This document shows, one piece after another, positions 25,560 through 43,076 of a stretch of DNA of 64,000 nucleotides. The stretch is from an uncultured Eubacteriales bacterium. GTDB taxonomy: Bacteria > Bacillota > Clostridia > Oscillospirales > Oscillospiraceae. Below the pieces are notes generated by a model. The model was not told the origin of the DNA. It searched no databases and worked only from the letters and a program-made list of their open reading frames with translations. How positions within the stretch are numbered: position 1 is the stretch's first letter; each line of letters opens with the position of its first letter. A program made the position numbers and the translations under genes. Location: the NCBI GenBank assembly GCA_900313925.1, contig OMTF01000005.1, positions 1 through 64,000 on the forward strand. The letters are read 5' to 3'.

Positions 25560-26015
25560 CTATCTATCGCTCGAATCTAAGGGTTGCAATGTGTTTAGAA
25601 GAATTTTAAATGCTTCTTCATAGCCCTCAAATCCCTTTCCGGTTATCGTCTGAATAGCAGCCTTGGAAATATAGGAGCGGTGTCTAAATTCATCCCTCTT
25701 GTATATCGCAGTTAAATGTACTTCAACAGTGGGAATTGTGGCAGCAAGCAATGCATCTAATATTGCGATGCTAGTGTGCGTATAAGCAGCAGGATTAATG
25801 ATAATTCCATCGATTTTTTCAAAGTATGCTTGCTGAATTCGATCAACAATTGCTCCCTCATGATTGGACTGAAATATTTCCACTTCTATGCCGTATTTTT
25901 CTGCAGTGCACGTAATATAGTCACAAAGAGATTTATAGGTTCTTTTTCCATATAAATCGGGCTCTCTGATCCCGAGCATATTAATATTGGGGCCATTAAT
26001 AACAAGTATTTTCAT
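25560..26015 (-). CDS. aroQ: 3-dehydroquinate dehydratase, type II
   Basis: Third step of the shikimate pathway. About 151 residues from the ATG at 26015; a TTG at 26039 is possible, but type II enzymes normally start MKILVINGPN. Catalytic features are present: LYGKRTY with Arg/Tyr, NPAAYTHTSIAILDAL, VHLTAI histidine and FRHRSYIS. It lies downstream of the main aro operon on the same strand after a 391-base gap, and supplies the one central shikimate step missing from that operon. Confidence 0.93.
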   Translation of the reverse strand: MKILVINGPNINMLGIREPDLYGKRTYKSLCDYITCTAEKYGIEVEIFQSNHEGAIVDRIQQAYFEKIDGIIINPAAYTHTSIAILDALLAATIPTVEVHLTAIYKRDEFRHRSYISKAAIQTITGKGFEGYEEAFKILLNTLQPLDSSDR

Positions 26016-26406: not shown

Positions 26407-27891
26407 TCAGTTTAGCTTTAGCTCCCTAATGATCTTTTCTGCGCAATCCTCTGGTGAACTTCCTTCAATAATTAGATCGCTCCATTTTTCATAAATTGGT
26501 AGTCTTTCTTTTGCCAGATACTCAACGGGGACAGATTGAGATATTGGTCTTCCTGTATCGGGAAGGTTTTGTAGATCTTCTCTTTTTAGATATATAATAC
26601 AACTATTTTGCCGGAGTAAATTATTGTTCTCCTCTCTAGTGACAACGCCCCCGCCTGTTGCAATAACCAAATGGTTCATTGCACTATATTTTTGTAAAAC
26701 ATTTGTTTCGGCTACTCTGAATTCTTCCTCAGAATGTTTCTTAAAGTAGTTTTCTATCGAGCAGCCCAAAAGTTCTTCAATTTTGTCATCGAGGTCTACA
26801 AATTCACGTCTGAGTTTTTTTGATAAAACTTGCCCCGTGGTAGTCTTGCCACAGCCTGGCATTCCAATCAGCGCTATATTGGATGTATTCGATAGAATTG
26901 CCTTATAAACCTCTCTGCTTTTATTAGCTGCAAATTGACTTTTCGTAAAAAGTTCGCTAGCGCGGATCGCCTGCATAATAAGCATTGGCAATCCGCCGCT
27001 GCAAGGTATTCCCTTTTTTTCAGCATCAAGAATAAGTTTAGTACGAAGAGGATTATATACTACATCTATAACCCCCTCTAAATGCCGGAAAATATCAAGA
27101 TTTACTAGACTGTTTCCATTATCGGGATACATCCCGACTGGTGTAGCATTAACAATTATTTCCGAATCTGCATGCCGTGATAAATTCGAATAATTGTTCT
27201 CTCCATGTCTAGACACCGTAATTATTTCCCGTGCTTCATGATTTCGAAGTACGTCTCGTATAGTTGGAGCAACCCCGCCATTTCCTAAAACGAGGCACTT
27301 TTTATTTTTAGGCATTATTCCTGTATATTTTATTAGATAATCAAATCCATCATAATCTGTGTTATAGCCATGCAAGCGACCGTTTTCCTCACGAACTACT
27401 GTATTTACGCTTCCAATTCTTCTTGCTGCAGGCGAAAGACTATCAAGGAATGGAAGGACGGCTTTTTTGTATGGGATTGTAACATTCAATCCATCGAAAT
27501 TTCCATTTTTTAGAAACCGTTCTACTTCATTAAACTCCTTTTCATATAGACAATAAGTGTAGTTGCCCAGCATTTTGTGTATCTGCGGAGAATAGCTATG
27601 ACCCAATTTTTGTCCTAGCAAGCCGAATCTGCCTATCCTCGAGAATTGATATGACTTGCTCAGATCCATGAGTTTATGGAGAAGAGCCTCCGCATATATC
27701 TCGTATTTCTCCGGGCACGTCTCTTTAAGTGCATCGATTTTCTTTTCTTCCCTTTCCAAATCCTCAATCGGTTTGTTAATCTCCTTTTTAATTTCTGACA
27801 TATTAGCTACGGCGTCCATTCTCATGCAAAAGAGGGAAATTATTTTTCTGTCGATTGAATCGATTCTCGCCCGTATTTCATCAAGTGTCAT
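26407..27891 (-). CDS. Trifunctional fusion: chorismate mutase - shikimate dehydrogenase - shikimate kinase
   Basis: 494 residues in three parts. Residues 1-85 are an AroQ-class chorismate mutase (RARIDSIDRKIISLFCMRM, IKKEINKPIEDLEREEKKI). About 86-335 is AroE: LLGQKLGHSYSPQIHKML with the substrate-binding Ser pair, NVTIPYKKAV with the catalytic Lys, NTDYDGF and a nucleotide-binding LGNGG. About 338-494 is AroK: LIGMPGCGKTTTGQ (P-loop), DLDDKIEELLG and IATGGGVV. All key residues I can locate are present, so all three activities are expected. It overlaps aroC by 11 bases and closes the operon. Confidence 0.92.
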   Translation of the reverse strand: MTLDEIRARIDSIDRKIISLFCMRMDAVANMSEIKKEINKPIEDLEREEKKIDALKETCPEKYEIYAEALLHKLMDLSKSYQFSRIGRFGLLGQKLGHSYSPQIHKMLGNYTYCLYEKEFNEVERFLKNGNFDGLNVTIPYKKAVLPFLDSLSPAARRIGSVNTVVREENGRLHGYNTDYDGFDYLIKYTGIMPKNKKCLVLGNGGVAPTIRDVLRNHEAREIITVSRHGENNYSNLSRHADSEIIVNATPVGMYPDNGNSLVNLDIFRHLEGVIDVVYNPLRTKLILDAEKKGIPCSGGLPMLIMQAIRASELFTKSQFAANKSREVYKAILSNTSNIALIGMPGCGKTTTGQVLSKKLRREFVDLDDKIEELLGCSIENYFKKHSEEEFRVAETNVLQKYSAMNHLVIATGGGVVTREENNNLLRQNSCIIYLKREDLQNLPDTGRPISQSVPVEYLAKERLPIYEKWSDLIIEGSSPEDCAEKIIRELKLN

Positions 27892-28885
27892 ATCCCATAG
27901 CCTCCTGAAGAAATGTAAGAATTACAATGCCGGCCATAGCATCAACGACAGGAACTGCACGGTAAGCTACGCATGGGTCGTGTCTTCCTTTTATTTTAAT
28001 TTCGCAGTTTTGCATCGTTTTTAGATTAACGGATTTCTGCGGTATAGATATGGAGGGTGTTGGACGAAATACAAGCTCAAAGGTAATCGGCATTCCATTA
28101 GAAATTCCTCCATTAATACCGCCAGAATTGTTTGTTATTGTTTCTATTACATTTACATTCTCCTCGTTTACTTTAAATCCGTCATTTGCTTCACTTCCAA
28201 GCATGTTTGCAAATTCAAATCCGGCTCCAAACTGAATTCCCTTTACAGCTGGTATTGCGAACATTGCACGTGCAATTTCTCCTTCAATATTTTTGCCAAT
28301 ATCCGGAGCTCCTATGGCAGATGGAAATCCGGTAATTTTGCACGCTATGCAGCCTCCAATGCTGTCTCCTGCACGTTCTGCTTCCGCAATTTGATTTTCA
28401 ATTTCTTGCTCTTTTGGGTTTCTTATACCATGAATGCTTGAAATATATGAGTTAACAAAGATTTTCTTTTTCATTAGTTGCAGTCTGGCGATGGAGCCCG
28501 CGAAAACCAAAGGTGCTGTGAGTCTTCCGGAAAAATGACCTCCTCCGCGAAAATCATTATATCCGCGATATCGTATCCATCCTGTATAGTCTGCATGAGA
28601 AGGCCTTGGAATATATTTCAGGTCTTCGTAATCTTCGGAATGTTTATCATCATTTGAAAAAACAGCACATAAAGGTGTTCCGGTTGTCTTGTTATTATAA
28701 ATACCGGAAAGTATTTTCGGTTTATCGCTTTCCTTTCGTTCTGTCGAAAGAGGGGTTCTTCCAGGAGCACGTCTATCCATCTGCGATTGTATAAAATCTT
28801 GATCTAAATAGATCCCGGATGGAATATCTTCAATTACAATTCCTATTGCCGGTCCATGTGACTCTCCGAATAATGAATATTTCAA
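27881..28885 (-). CDS. aroC: Chorismate synthase
   Basis: Makes chorismate from EPSP using reduced FMN. 334 residues, slightly shorter than the E. coli enzyme but complete. Signatures: FGESHGPAIGIVIEDIPSG, DRRAPGRTPLSTERKE, RPSHADYTGW and DFRGGGHFSGRLTAPLVFAG. The catalytic His in the GESHG region is present. It starts 1 base after aroA and overlaps the fusion gene, so the cluster is tightly coupled. Confidence 0.96.
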   Translation of the reverse strand: MKYSLFGESHGPAIGIVIEDIPSGIYLDQDFIQSQMDRRAPGRTPLSTERKESDKPKILSGIYNNKTTGTPLCAVFSNDDKHSEDYEDLKYIPRPSHADYTGWIRYRGYNDFRGGGHFSGRLTAPLVFAGSIARLQLMKKKIFVNSYISSIHGIRNPKEQEIENQIAEAERAGDSIGGCIACKITGFPSAIGAPDIGKNIEGEIARAMFAIPAVKGIQFGAGFEFANMLGSEANDGFKVNEENVNVIETITNNSGGINGGISNGMPITFELVFRPTPSISIPQKSVNLKTMQNCEIKIKGRHDPCVAYRAVPVVDAMAGIVILTFLQEAMGYDT

Positions 28886-28886
28886 A

Positions 28887-30149
28887 TTAATCCATCCTTT
28901 CGATATTTCCGCCGAGGATTTGATAATCCTTGAAAAAACGTGGATATGATTTTTTCACACATTCTGCTCCGTGCAATGTCACACCATTTTTGCTTCGGAT
29001 GGCCGCAATAGATGCCATCATTGCGATTCTGTGATCATTCCATGCGTCAACATCCGCATTATGAAATCCCGGATCACCCCGTATCGTCAGGCCATCTGAA
29101 AATTCTTCTATCTTCCCTCCAAGCAAGCGGATCACTTCCGCAGCTGCCATCAGCCTGTCACTTTCTTTATAGCGCAGTCGTTCTGCATTATAAATAATAG
29201 TTTCTCCCTTTGCAGCGCTAGCACAGACGCAAAGGGCAGGGATAAGATCGGGTATATTTTTAGCATCTATATCTATTGAATGCAGATCCTGTGGGTAGAT
29301 TGTAATTAAATCTCCGCTACTATCGATCTTCGCACCGAATTGCGCTAAAAGTTCCACGATTCTCCTATCTCCTTGCAGGCTTCCCCTATTTAATCCCGAA
29401 ACACTCACGGAATTTTCTGCAAAAGCTCCAGCACATAGCCAAAATGCAGCGTTCGACCAGTCGCCTTCAACGTTCCACCTCTTTGCTTTATATTCTCCTC
29501 TGACCGAGAAGTCGTTATTATCTACAGCAACATCTAGACCAGCTTTCAATAAGCAGTCCACCGTTATTGCCACATAAGGAGAAGACTGGATTTCTCCCAT
29601 GACATGAATATTCCCACCGCCGCACAAAGGCAATGTCATCAGCAACCCGCTAATGAATTGAGATGAAATTCCTCCATCGATTTTAAAATCCGTATTCGAC
29701 AGTGGCCCTTCTGCCAGCAGAGTAGACTTGTCCTGCAAAATAAACTTTGCCCCATGTGCAGAAAGTTCCTCCATCAAAGGCAAAATCGGTCGTTCTGCCA
29801 ATCTTCCGTGAAGTAAGAATTTTGCCTTACATCCAAGAGCGCATATAATTGGGAGCAGGAACCGAAAAGTCGTTCCGGACTCCCCGCAGTCTAGCATGCA
29901 TTCTCTGTTCCTTGCGCTGTCTTTATCTAGAGGAGAAACCGCTATTCTATCCCGGCAAATAGTAATCTCTGCCCCTAAAGCTTCAAGACAGTTAATCGTT
30001 GCTTGAATGTCCGCAGAAATCGTGCTGCAAAAGATATCCGATGGACCATCTGATAAAGATGCGCAAATTAGCATTCTGTGTGCGTATGATTTAGATGACG
30101 GTGCGGCTACCGTACCGGAAAACTGGTTTGCAGAAATGTGCACAATCAT
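28887..30149 (-). CDS. aroA: 3-phosphoshikimate 1-carboxyvinyltransferase (EPSP synthase)
   Basis: 420 residues from the ATG at 30149, chosen because GAGGAGAT lies about 6 bases upstream; a longer frame lacks a site. Active-site segments: APSSKSYAHR with the catalytic Lys, CGESGTTFRFLLPI, DGGISSQFISGLL, RYKESDRL and WNDHRIAMM. It lies between aroB (37-base gap) and aroC. Confidence 0.95.
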   Translation of the reverse strand: MIVHISANQFSGTVAAPSSKSYAHRMLICASLSDGPSDIFCSTISADIQATINCLEALGAEITICRDRIAVSPLDKDSARNRECMLDCGESGTTFRFLLPIICALGCKAKFLLHGRLAERPILPLMEELSAHGAKFILQDKSTLLAEGPLSNTDFKIDGGISSQFISGLLMTLPLCGGGNIHVMGEIQSSPYVAITVDCLLKAGLDVAVDNNDFSVRGEYKAKRWNVEGDWSNAAFWLCAGAFAENSVSVSGLNRGSLQGDRRIVELLAQFGAKIDSSGDLITIYPQDLHSIDIDAKNIPDLIPALCVCASAAKGETIIYNAERLRYKESDRLMAAAEVIRLLGGKIEEFSDGLTIRGDPGFHNADVDAWNDHRIAMMASIAAIRSKNGVTLHGAECVKKSYPRFFKDYQILGGNIERMD

Positions 30150-30186: not shown

Positions 30187-31239
30187 TTACAGTCCTTGCG
30201 AAATAAAATCTTCCAATTCTGCAAATGGAATATCCTTCATAACGCATTCTCCTATGCGAACAGGAATTATCATTCGAACTGTGTTTGTTTTTTTCTTTTT
30301 ATCATTTTCTATAGCCCTGCTGATTTGCTTTGCCGAATAGTCTGTGTACGTCGGGAGATGAAACATTTCTAGAAAACTGCATATTTTTTCCGGAGCATTA
30401 TTCGGACAAATGGTTTTCGCTGCTGCACGCGATACAACTGACATGCCAATTGATACTGCACGCCCATGCGATATATTGTAGCTGGATAGCAACTCGACGG
30501 CATGGCCTACGGTATGCCCAAAGTTCAGCATCATTCGCAGATCTTTATCTTTTTCATCTGCCTCTACAAAATTTCTTTTAATTTCTACGCATCGCAGAAT
30601 AATATTTTGAATATTTTCATTGACTCCCTTTAATAATTCAAGGAGATGCGGATCTGAAAGTACGGCATATTTAATAATTTCCGCACATCCGTCTTCAAAT
30701 AAATTTTTTGGTAATGTACGCAGTGTCGAATAATCACAAATCACAGCACTAGGCTGCCAAAAAGTACCGACAAGGTTCTTGCCTTCAGGAAGATTAATTC
30801 CCGTTTTCCCTCCGACCGAAGCATCTACCATAGCTAAAAGTGTCGTGGGAATTTGTAAATAATGTATTCCGCGCATATATGTGGAAGCTGCAAAGCCAGT
30901 CAGATCGCCTGTAACTCCACCGCCTAAAGACACGAGAAAATCTTGCCGCGAAAGACCCGCTTTTACGCAAGCTTCAAGCAATTCCAGGTAAGTATTTGCG
31001 GTTTTGGATTTTTCTCCGTGCGGGTATACGAATTTATAGACCTGAAATCCCGAAGCCTTTAAAGATTTGCAAACATCATCTGCATAAATTTTATTCACAA
31101 TATCGCCGCATACTACAATGCATTTTAATCCGCTGCAGGAATTTCGCGCAACTTCGCCAGTCAATTTAAGAATGCCGTTATCAATAATAATGTGATAGGC
31201 ACTTGAAGCCTGAACAATCACCTCAGCCATCTTTGCCAT
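30187..31239 (-). CDS. aroB: 3-dehydroquinate synthase
   Basis: Second step of the pathway (DAHP to dehydroquinate). 350 residues. NAD and Zn motifs: VSLGGGVTGDLTGFAASTYMRG, TTLLAMVDASVGGKTGIN, EIIKYAVL, and NFGHTVGHAVE with metal-binding histidines. Two ATGs (31239 and 31230) share the AAGGTGG site; the longer is given. It overlaps tyrA by 17 bases. Confidence 0.95.
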   Translation of the reverse strand: MAKMAEVIVQASSAYHIIIDNGILKLTGEVARNSCSGLKCIVVCGDIVNKIYADDVCKSLKASGFQVYKFVYPHGEKSKTANTYLELLEACVKAGLSRQDFLVSLGGGVTGDLTGFAASTYMRGIHYLQIPTTLLAMVDASVGGKTGINLPEGKNLVGTFWQPSAVICDYSTLRTLPKNLFEDGCAEIIKYAVLSDPHLLELLKGVNENIQNIILRCVEIKRNFVEADEKDKDLRMMLNFGHTVGHAVELLSSYNISHGRAVSIGMSVVSRAAAKTICPNNAPEKICSFLEMFHLPTYTDYSAKQISRAIENDKKKKTNTVRMIIPVRIGECVMKDIPFAELEDFISQGL

Positions 31240-32062
31240 CCACCTTTTCTTTCAGCTCTCTTCCTTCTGCTAGCAGCACTTCTAATTTCTCTGCATCGCC
31301 ATCGGAAATAGCATCGCGAAATTGTTCCAACGATCCAATTAAATTATTCAACTCATATAATAGGTTGTCCGAATTTTCCATAAATAACTGTGTCCACATT
31401 TTCTCATTTAAATGCGCAACCCTAGTCATGTCCTTATAACTGCCCGCTGAAACTCCTGCATGGCTTTGAGCTGTTGGACTTTTGATATATGCACAGGATA
31501 CAACGTGCGCTAATTGTGATGTGAATGCAATCGTCTTATCATGCTTTGCGGAAGTCGTAACCGTTATTTTTCCAAATTTTGCTGGTGCCAATAGGTCCTT
31601 TATTTTCTGCAATTCATTGATATCATCATAAAACTCCGGAACAATTACCATCGGCTGCCCCGCAAACAATCCCGAAAAGCTGTTTTTAAAACCCGAATAC
31701 TGCGTCCCTGCCATCGGATGACCTCCGACATATGTGTAACCATATTGATGAGCCAGCTGAAACCCTGCTTTGCAGATTATTCTTTTGGTTCCTCCGCAAT
31801 CCATCACAACGGTTTTTTTACTAACATTAGGAGCAATGTTACGCATATACTCTATCGTATCTTCCGGAAATTTGGCAATGAAAATAATATCGCATTGGGG
31901 AATAGTAATTTCATTTAATTCCCCGTCTGAAACTCCGGCCAATTGGGCATATTCTGTTACGCTTTTCGTTCTGTCCTCTACGTAGACTGTATGTCCAGCT
32001 TTTTTATAATCTCGAGCCAGAGAGCCGCCAATGAGTCCTATTCCAGCGAACCCTGCAATCAT
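31223..32062 (-). CDS. tyrA: Prephenate dehydrogenase
   Basis: Oxidative decarboxylation of prephenate to 4-hydroxyphenylpyruvate in tyrosine synthesis. 279 residues: Rossmann motif GIGLIGGSLARDYKKAG at the N-terminus, VMDCGGTKRII, GGHPMAGTQYSGFKNS with the catalytic His, and a helical C-terminal dimerisation domain. It has no ACT domain. It overlaps aroF by 4 bases and aroB by 17. Its presence next to DAHP synthase fits the tyrosine-rich leader peptide. Confidence 0.93.
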   Translation of the reverse strand: MIAGFAGIGLIGGSLARDYKKAGHTVYVEDRTKSVTEYAQLAGVSDGELNEITIPQCDIIFIAKFPEDTIEYMRNIAPNVSKKTVVMDCGGTKRIICKAGFQLAHQYGYTYVGGHPMAGTQYSGFKNSFSGLFAGQPMVIVPEFYDDINELQKIKDLLAPAKFGKITVTTSAKHDKTIAFTSQLAHVVSCAYIKSPTAQSHAGVSAGSYKDMTRVAHLNEKMWTQLFMENSDNLLYELNNLIGSLEQFRDAISDGDAEKLEVLLAEGRELKEKVDGKDG

Positions 32063-33063
32063 AATATTGCCTCCCGAATTCGTTTCACCTTTGTCATTAG
32101 TACATCAAATGCGTCCGGGGTAATTGACTGTGCCCCGTCGCATTTTGCTTTTGATGGCTCATTATGTACTTCTATCATCAAGCCGTCTGTTCCTGCCGCT
32201 GTAGCGCCAAGGGCAACGGGAGCCACCAAATCCGCATGTCCTGTTGCATGGCTTGGATCCGCAATCACAGGGAGGTGGCTTAATTTATGGATTAGAGGAA
32301 TGGAAGAAAGATCAAAAGTATTTCGTGTATAGGATTCGTATGTTCGTATCCCTCGCTCGCATAGAATAACATTTCTGTTTCCCGAGGAAAGAATATATTC
32401 CGCAGACATGAGCCATTCTTCTATGGTGTTCGCAAATCCGCGCTTAAGGAGTATTGGCTTTCTGCAATGACCAAGTTCTTTCAGTAGTTCATAGTTCTGC
32501 ATATTCCTAGCGCCAATCTGGATAATATCTACATCTTCAAATAGGTCAAGAGTTGAAATGTCCATCAATTCCGTAATGATAGGTAGACCTGTTGCCTTTT
32601 TTGCTTCAAGGAGAAGTAAAATTCCCTCTTTTCCCATTCCCTGGAACGAATAAGGCGATGTTCGCGGCTTGAAGGCACCGCCCCGAAGGATTTTTGCTCC
32701 CGATTTTTTCACTTGCTCAGCAATAAAAATAATTTGTTCCTCATTTTCGACAGAGCACGGTCCTGCTATAACGACAAAATTTCCATTTCCAATCTTTGTT
32801 CCGTCCTTGAGCTCAATGACTGTGTTCTCCGGATGGAACTTTCTATTTGCCGCTTTAAACGGCTCCGAAACCCGTTTTACGCTCTCTACAGTATCTAAAG
32901 CTTCTAAAAGTTCAGTGTCGATTTTACTTACATCACCAACAAGGCCAATAATCGTAATATTTGTTCCTTTGGAAATGTCGGGTTCAACGCCTTGCTCTTT
33001 TAACCAAACTACAAGGTTCCTGATTTGCTCATCCGTAGTACCGGGCTTCATTACAACGACCAT
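32059..33063 (-). CDS. aroF: 3-deoxy-7-phosphoheptulonate (DAHP) synthase, type I-beta
   Basis: First committed step of aromatic biosynthesis. 334 residues. Residues 1-70 form a ferredoxin-like regulatory domain (MVVVMKPGTTDEQI...), as in Thermotoga and related enzymes. The barrel follows, with VVIAGPCSVEN, RGGAFKPRTSPYSFQG, QIGARNMQNYELL, LLKRGFANTIEEW and ADPSHATGH, which supply PEP, erythrose-4-phosphate and metal ligands. The ATG follows TAGGAGGG. It is the first structural gene of the operon, behind an attenuator-type leader. Confidence 0.95.
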   Translation of the reverse strand: MVVVMKPGTTDEQIRNLVVWLKEQGVEPDISKGTNITIIGLVGDVSKIDTELLEALDTVESVKRVSEPFKAANRKFHPENTVIELKDGTKIGNGNFVVIAGPCSVENEEQIIFIAEQVKKSGAKILRGGAFKPRTSPYSFQGMGKEGILLLLEAKKATGLPIITELMDISTLDLFEDVDIIQIGARNMQNYELLKELGHCRKPILLKRGFANTIEEWLMSAEYILSSGNRNVILCERGIRTYESYTRNTFDLSSIPLIHKLSHLPVIADPSHATGHADLVAPVALGATAAGTDGLMIEVHNEPSKAKCDGAQSITPDAFDVLMTKVKRIREAIL

Positions 33064-33087
33064 AATTTCCCTCCTAGAAGTTAAAAT

Positions 33088-33123
33088 AAAAAAACCGTGT
33101 AGTGAATCACCACACGGTTTTTT
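33088..33123 (-). terminator. Attenuator terminator in the aro operon leader
   Basis: On the minus strand AACCGTGTGGTGA pairs with TCACTACACGGTT, followed by seven Ts. The one non-Watson-Crick position is G-U on the minus strand but A-C on the plus strand, assigning it to the leftward transcript. It lies between the leader peptide stop and the aroF ribosome binding site. Confidence 0.82.
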
Positions 33124-33164
33124 ATCTTACTGAAATATTATTTATTGTTCCGCATGATAAATCA

Positions 33165-33230
33165 CTATTCCTCAAAAAATGAGCAATAGTAATAATAAGA
33201 TGCACCTGTTTTTACCATAAAGTTATCCAT
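33165..33230 (-). CDS. Tyr/Phe-rich leader peptide of the aro operon
   Basis: A 21-codon frame starting ATG at 33230, with AAGGA 6 bases upstream. The peptide begins MDNFMVKTGAS and then contains four consecutive Tyr codons, Cys, Ser, two consecutive Phe codons and two Glu before TAG. It lies about 20 bases after the predicted transcription start and about 40 bases before the terminator. The run of Tyr and Phe codons in front of DAHP synthase and prephenate dehydrogenase is what a ribosome-mediated attenuator sensing charged tRNA-Tyr and tRNA-Phe would need. The alternative antiterminator pairing could not be drawn with certainty. Confidence 0.78.
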   Translation of the reverse strand: MDNFMVKTGASYYYYCSFFEE

Positions 33231-33258
33231 AACAATTCCTTATCGAAAGATTATTTTT

Positions 33259-33287
33259 TTTATAGGCTTTTTAAAGCTTTATGTCAA
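33259..33287 (-). promoter_or_regulatory. Promoter of the aro operon
   Basis: Minus-strand TTGACA (33282-33287), 17 bases, TATAAA (33259-33264). The start is predicted near 33251, about 20 bases upstream of the leader peptide ATG. Confidence 0.82.
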
Positions 33288-33345: not shown

Positions 33346-33407
33346 ATGCAAATTTTACCAAGAAAACCGGCATACCGTGCGCTAGGTTCTACTGGTAAAA
33401 TTTGCAT
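33346..33407. repeat. 15-bp perfect inverted repeat with 32-base loop
   Basis: ATGCAAATTTTACCA (33346-33360) pairs perfectly with 33393-33407. The loop itself contains AACC/GGTT. It lies between the pyc stop and the aro promoter and has no T tail. It could be the 3' end structure of the pyc transcript or a small repeated element. Confidence 0.6.
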
Positions 33408-42872: not shown

Positions 42873-42902
42873 CGAATTTCTAAATAAATAATCTCACGAA
42901 CC

Positions 42903-43064
42903 ATAGATAGCGCTTCATCGAAATGACAGTTCGCCGGATATTTTCCGACGTCCCAGGTAATTACGGAAGCAGGAACTCCGAAACCCTTCGGCGGCGACTC
43001 CTTTCACTTCGACGTTTCCTGACGCTTTTAGGAAGCTACTCTTAGCAACCGCACCTCTATCTTT
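42903..43064 (-). promoter_or_regulatory. Lysine riboswitch (L box)
   Basis: On the minus strand the closing helix AGATAG/CTATCT encloses AGAGGTGCGG, AGAGTAGCTTCC, GTGAAAGGAGTCGCCGCCGAAG and an ACTGTCATTTCGATG segment. These match the order and conserved blocks of the B. subtilis lysC lysine riboswitch (GAUAGAGGUGCG, AAGAGUA, GUCGCCGAAG, GGCUGUC). The 162-base length fits. Confidence 0.9.
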
Positions 43065-43076
43065 TGTTAGCCATGA

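Follow-up and report, generated by a model that had tools for sequence, protein, structure and literature searches.

The window, i.e. the whole 64,000-nucleotide stretch of DNA analysed here, carries on its minus strand an operon for aromatic amino acid synthesis. The first gene is aroF, encoding DAHP synthase (32059–33063; PF00793, 3e-78, with the ferredoxin-like domain PF18152, 2e-22), which has a Shine-Dalgarno sequence, AGGAGGG, at 33068–33074 as read from the sequence. Downstream on the same strand lie tyrA (prephenate dehydrogenase, 31223–32062; PF02153 and PF20463), aroB (30187–31239; PF01761 and PF24621), aroA (EPSP synthase, 28887–30140; PF00275), aroC (chorismate synthase, 27881–28885; PF01264), a single ORF that fuses chorismate mutase, AroE and AroK (26407–27891; PF01817, PF08501 and PF01202) and a type II dehydroquinase gene, aroQ, which is likely the last gene of the operon (25560–26012; PF01220). 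The pyruvate carboxylase gene, pyc, lies upstream of the aroF leader on the same strand. Between pyc and the aroF promoter there is an imperfect inverted repeat (33346–33407; 23-nt arms, 87% complementary, 16-nt loop), present in one copy in the genome and lacking a U tract, which is perhaps the 3' end of pyc. Elsewhere in the window, Rfam recognised a lysine riboswitch (42900–43067, minus strand, 84 bits).

Upstream of aroF, again on the minus strand, a sigma-A-type promoter, TTGACA-N17-TATAAA (33259–33287), matches the consensus at 11 of 12 bases (-35 hexamer at 33287–33282, -10 hexamer at 33264–33259, spacer of 17 nt); a simple promoter scan misses it solely through requiring the last base of the -10 hexamer to be T. 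The promoter is followed by a leader ORF, MDNFMVKTGASYYYYCSFFEE (33165–33230, minus strand; 21 codons and TAG), whose ATG lies 6 nt downstream of a Shine-Dalgarno sequence, AAGGA, also read from the sequence (33237–33241, minus strand). The ORF contains four Tyr codons in a row, TAT TAT TAC TAT (33186–33197), and further on two consecutive Phe codons, TTT TTT (codons 17-18, 33174–33179), giving a Tyr-dominant ratio of 4:2. Taken alone this run is mildly unusual and only suggestive: when the 300-nt region is shuffled with its dinucleotides preserved, 12 of 500 replicates reach its score. The strong case comes from comparison, Tyr/Phe-rich leaders also lying 5' of the orthologues. With its promoter, its Shine-Dalgarno sequence and a conserved run of end-product codons, the short frame has the composition of a candidate attenuator leader.

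The leader is followed by an intrinsic terminator (33089–33123, minus strand; regions 3:4), consisting of a 16-bp stem and a U-rich tail, ∼135 nt downstream of the near-consensus promoter and directly 5' of aroF. Its stem is the longest among five terminator-like sites within 8 kb, and leader and terminator together fold with a z of -5.3 relative to dinucleotide shuffles, of which the terminator probably contributes most. The first-pass annotation had listed a near-consensus promoter, a ribosome binding site, the 21-codon Tyr/Phe frame and a terminator ahead of aroF, and all of these are present in that place on the minus strand; the Pfam matches given above likewise bear out its assignment of DAHP synthase and prephenate dehydrogenase to the operon. 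A plain terminator of pyc, or a constitutive leader, with the small ORF irrelevant in either case, would be in keeping with the position of pyc upstream on the same strand and with how common inter-operon terminators are. We regard this as extremely improbable given the distance of the terminator from the promoter, its place directly before aroF, and the recurrence of leader, antiterminator and terminator, with coevolving pairing, in most of the relatives examined.

Predicted competing RNA structures at the leader

The segment that starts at the leader stop codon, UAGUGAuUUAUCAUGCGG (33150–33167, minus strand; region 2), can form 17 bp with 33117–33100 and is the candidate antiterminator arm. 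The antiterminator uses the 5' arm of the terminator, so that the two structures are mutually exclusive, and the terminator itself stands before the first structural gene. In the MFE fold, part of the Tyr run (33193–33185) is paired with 33169–33161 in a 1:2 hairpin (33161–33193, minus strand); these codons therefore compete for part of the antiterminator arm. When the ribosome-free RNA of the window was folded with a ribosome stalled at the Tyr codons or at the first Phe codon, the antiterminator formed at -18.8 to -22.7 kcal/mol, and with a stall at the second Phe codon it formed at -13.2 kcal/mol; with the ribosome at the stop codon the antiterminator helix was lost. The geometry thus modeled predicts that a stall at the control codons would free the arm and that arrival at the stop would mask it. 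RNA folded without translation retained about half of the antiterminator, and basal termination may therefore be leaky.

That the codon run does pair with the segment following it is also what would be seen in an RNA-only switch, i.e. a T-box or riboswitch sensing tRNA or Tyr, in which the Tyr/Phe codons were a by-product of the pairing strands. However, neither a T-box (RF00230) nor any other Rfam family was found over threshold at the window leader, with the gathering cut-offs or with a lax E-value, and the RNA 5' of the terminator is only ∼125 nt long and is largely occupied by the reading frame, so that a T-box stem I could hardly be accommodated. The reading frame, Shine-Dalgarno sequence and start codons are kept in relatives, and an RNA-only switch would not need the change between Tyr and Phe codons with operon content that is described below. 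We therefore consider a switch of this kind very unlikely.

The Rfam matches seen on the terminator region were below threshold and at chance level (trpB motif, 31.8 bits against 59; rli60, 22.6 against 60; Leu_leader, 21.7 against 50), and the window leader scored 17.2 bits with the Phe_leader model RF01859, for which the gathering cut-off is 55. Rfam searches on 20 relatives with leaders returned nothing at the leaders, and among 20 loci of which most lack a clear leader they returned one T-box (in L103), so replacement of the leader by a T-box is not a general rule. The window's own genome has seven T-boxes, which precede valS, thrS, alaS, cysS, pheS, an asparagine-synthase-like gene and an ABC transporter gene, with gene names assigned from the protein sequences encoded downstream.

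Conservation and coevolution in Clostridia

A search with the DAHP synthase as query was used to find orthologues in 60 relatives and in named genomes; most of these are MAGs from Oscillospiraceae and other Clostridia. A frame with at least seven Tyr or Phe within 12 residues was present in 58 of 106 orthologue upstream regions, whereas the antisense strand had none and shuffled sequences would be expected to give 0.85; residue pairs other than Tyr and Phe gave no comparable excess in these regions. In a class-wide draw of one genome per family, the Tyr/Phe leader was present in 27 of 39 (antisense 0; 0.25 expected). Example frames are FAYEYFYFYFYFTLKNKVKAIRAA (L028), KKYYYYFSFTSFFGKACFGSLQ (L016) and ARFFFYYYYFFPGKR (L107). 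Cultured relatives with a similar arrangement include Angelakisella massiliensis (L060) and Bittarella massiliensis (L101). Across the leaders, each of the two Tyr codons and the two Phe codons is used in the runs (TTT 181, TAC 95, TAT 79, TTC 38). In-frame starts have a mean Shine-Dalgarno energy of -7.2 kcal/mol, compared with -2.3 kcal/mol at out-of-frame starts, and 93% of them reach -4 or better; the window leader is at -5.1. A promoter with at least 10 of 12 consensus bases precedes 48 of 57 leaders of relatives (shuffled mean 8.2). Terminators accompany the Tyr/Phe frames, i.e. relatives keep the terminator and the codon run, and not the terminator alone, the pattern that the first-pass annotation had named as evidence against an attenuator. 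As judged from sequence, the Tyr/Phe leader is a normal element 5' of DAHP synthase in most of the families of the class that were sampled, and the earlier view that such an attenuator is less usual in Firmicutes does not hold for this lineage.

Other leaders were also seen. A second class, with a motif like FGWxRFxGxGFF, i.e. with Phe and Trp and few Tyr (L213, L221, L224, L225, L129 and L139), stands before DAHP synthase-aroB-...-pheA operons, and leaders with Trp occur as well in Pelosinus, Clostridium ganghwense and several class-level families. In a Treponema MAG (L116), a leader-like frame, LYYSYFYYYYF, lies 5' of DAHP synthase without a clear terminator; the label of this bin as a spirochaete suggests horizontal transfer or mis-binning. 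DAHP synthase copies near trpE (G004 C52, G005 C3 and G017 C36) lack their own leader.

In the 57 leaders with a clear terminator, a linker segment is complementary to the terminator 5' arm and loop, and this antiterminator arm lies a median of 19 nt after the last Tyr/Phe codon. We used an alignment-free swap test, in place of covariation counts from MAFFT alignments, to compare the pairing of each linker with its own terminator and with those of other species. Cognate pairs had a mean energy of -13.9 kcal/mol compared with -9.4 kcal/mol for different-species pairs, and none of 10,000 permutations was as good; for the window alone the values were -13.9 (cognate) and -7.5 (non-cognate). In a set of 23 sequences, 69% of cells were paired in register and 35-49% after the partner was slid by 1-3 columns; the corresponding values in a set of 12 were 86% and 28-56%. 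Column-by-column covariation in these small MAFFT alignments was weak when compared with shuffles (45/500 and 34/500; 29/500 and 50/500), in the larger set because two terminator registers are mixed in it. The first-pass annotation had proposed that relatives be compared for a competing antiterminator and for covariation; the coevolving antiterminator is upheld by the swap test, whereas the signal of covariation in single columns is weak.

The arm also pairs upstream, with a mean probability of 0.63 over 52 loci, although in several relatives the overlap between the 1:2 hairpin and the arm is small, amounting to few bases. We modeled masking of the arm with an assumed ribosome footprint, from -15 to +11 relative to the A-site, which is a size taken from general knowledge. 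With this footprint, 0-1% of the arm was masked by a ribosome stalled anywhere in the run and a mean of 46% by a ribosome at the stop codon, which thus typically leaves some half of the arm exposed. In 40 of the 52 loci a ribosome at the stop masked a larger part of the arm than one at the last stall position. The conserved run, the coevolving antiterminator and the stall/stop geometry together support the proposal, made in the first-pass annotation, of an E. coli-type leader-peptide attenuator.

Leader codons and operon content

Operon content was determined from 10-kb neighbourhoods, with prephenate dehydratase recognised by PF00800 and by a dehydratase-only BLAST query that separates pheA from the chorismate mutase domain. 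The proportion of Tyr among the Tyr and Phe codons of the leader was 0.73 in tyrA-only operons (n=15), 0.43 in operons with tyrA and pheA (n=35) and 0.24 in pheA-only operons (n=10; Kruskal-Wallis p 6e-9). In all four genomes with both kinds of operon, the leaders differ in the expected direction, e.g. G016 has NYGYSYYRYY before aroF-tyrA and FFGSYARFTGMGFF before an aroF-aroB-pheA operon. The state of pheA changes about 12 times on the tree; after correction for the tree there were 5 well-supported independent pairs, of which ∼4.2 went the same way and 0 the opposite way, and with a median p of 0.125 these are too few for significance alone. We consider it probable that the leaders form a class-wide aromatic family in Clostridia whose control codons are retuned over evolution to the tyrA and pheA content of the operon, the window leader being the Tyr-tuned form. 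With the same good probability, the family has Tyr, Tyr+Phe and Phe forms, some with Trp, and operon content reveals which amino acid is sensed.

The window operon is of the tyrA-only kind, having tyrA and no pheA, and the dominance of Tyr in its control codons fits this. No prephenate dehydratase (pheA, PF00800) and no anthranilate synthase component I (PF04715) or trpE family member was recognised anywhere in the window's own genome (G000, 99.3% complete), which is probably auxotrophic for Phe and Trp or has an unusual route to Phe; pheA is present in two genus mates. The leader carries two Phe codons although the genome has no recognisable pheA.

These Phe codons bear on the claim of the first-pass annotation that the attenuator senses both Tyr and Phe. 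Equal sensing of the two amino acids would agree with the folding results, in which a stall at codons 17-18 also frees the antiterminator, and with the mixing of Tyr and Phe codons in most sister operons. However, tyrA operons without pheA, like that of the window, have Tyr-dominant leaders in 14 of 15 cases, and the window has four Tyr codons in a row against two Phe. We consider equal sensing rather unlikely. As leader composition tracks operon content, and the window operon has tyrA without pheA, the claim is better restated as primarily Tyr; given where the Phe codons sit, secondary sensing of Phe by the window leader is possible in the model.

Proposed mechanism and relation to known attenuators

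We put at roughly 0.9 the probability that the window leader is a ribosome-mediated transcription attenuator of the E. coli trp/pheA type, primarily Tyr-sensing, which most likely turns on the aromatic amino acid genes at low tyrosine. Transcription would start near 33250, and the leader would be translated as it emerged. As long as charged tRNA-Tyr (and tRNA-Phe) was abundant, the ribosome would proceed to UAG and cover the antiterminator arm, which starts at this codon; the terminator would form, and transcription would end 5' of aroF. With uncharged tRNA-Tyr, the ribosome would stall on the four Tyr codons and break the 1:2 hairpin, and the freed arm would pair with the terminator 5' arm and loop (17 bp), allowing RNA polymerase to enter aroF-tyrA-aroB-aroA-aroC-CM/aroE/aroK-aroQ. 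The anatomy, the conservation, the coevolving antiterminator, the stall/stop geometry and the match of leader codons to operon content are shown here, and all of the evidence for the attenuator is comparative and structural. We infer that the leader is translated and termination modulated, with Tyr as the main signal and Phe as a secondary one.

The attenuators of E. coli pheA (pheL; RF01859), trp and his have a control-codon run, a 1:2 hairpin, an antiterminator 2:3, a terminator 3:4 and a biosynthetic operon downstream, all of which have counterparts in the window. Unlike the pheA attenuator, to which it has no sequence relation, the window leader is Tyr- and not Phe-dominant and precedes a DAHP synthase-tyrA-shikimate operon in Clostridia. 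The mechanism is therefore classical, and similar Phe/Tyr leaders have already been reported. The aroF leader of Corynebacterium glutamicum encodes Phe-Tyr-Phe (PMC4046766) and, like that of the window, combines Phe/Tyr codons and an attenuator before a DAHP synthase gene; in that Actinobacterium there are three control codons, whereas the window, in Clostridia, has four Tyr in a row and a whole operon downstream. In a five-genome study that includes Clostridium novyi, two candidate uORFs containing Phe and Tyr are, according to the figure legend, associated with genes of the shikimate pathway and in this resemble the window leader (PMC6429828 Fig. 6b). The uORFC-13-1 motif of Acholeplasma has a promoter, a Shine-Dalgarno sequence, a Phe-coding uORF and a terminator before aroF but, unlike the window leader, encodes Phe only, and it is restricted to Acholeplasma and unassigned environmental sequences (PMC8632094). 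Listeria Rli60 (PMC5864092) and the Leu leader of S. aureus ilv-leu (PMC5794164), both with experimental support, and the His leaders predicted in Firmicutes (PMC2965389, PMC9413887) are, like that of the window, Firmicute leader-peptide attenuators, although for other amino acids and operons and with no sequence relation.

Neither the spread of such leaders through the class nor the correspondence between their codons and the operon seems to have been described so far, no account of either having been found in the open-access literature, to which the search was confined (subscription papers lay outside it). In textbooks the amino acid operons of Firmicutes are controlled by T-boxes and TRAP, and leader-peptide attenuators belong mainly to Proteobacteria. 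The results presented here suggest instead that across Clostridia, which include many gut bacteria, the gene for the first enzyme of aromatic synthesis is usually preceded by a leader-peptide attenuator. This would help annotators to recognise many small ORFs that are now unannotated, and the match between leader and operon would predict the amino acid sensed by each operon. As codon content tracks operon content, the family would also provide a clean natural experiment on the evolution of sensing specificity.
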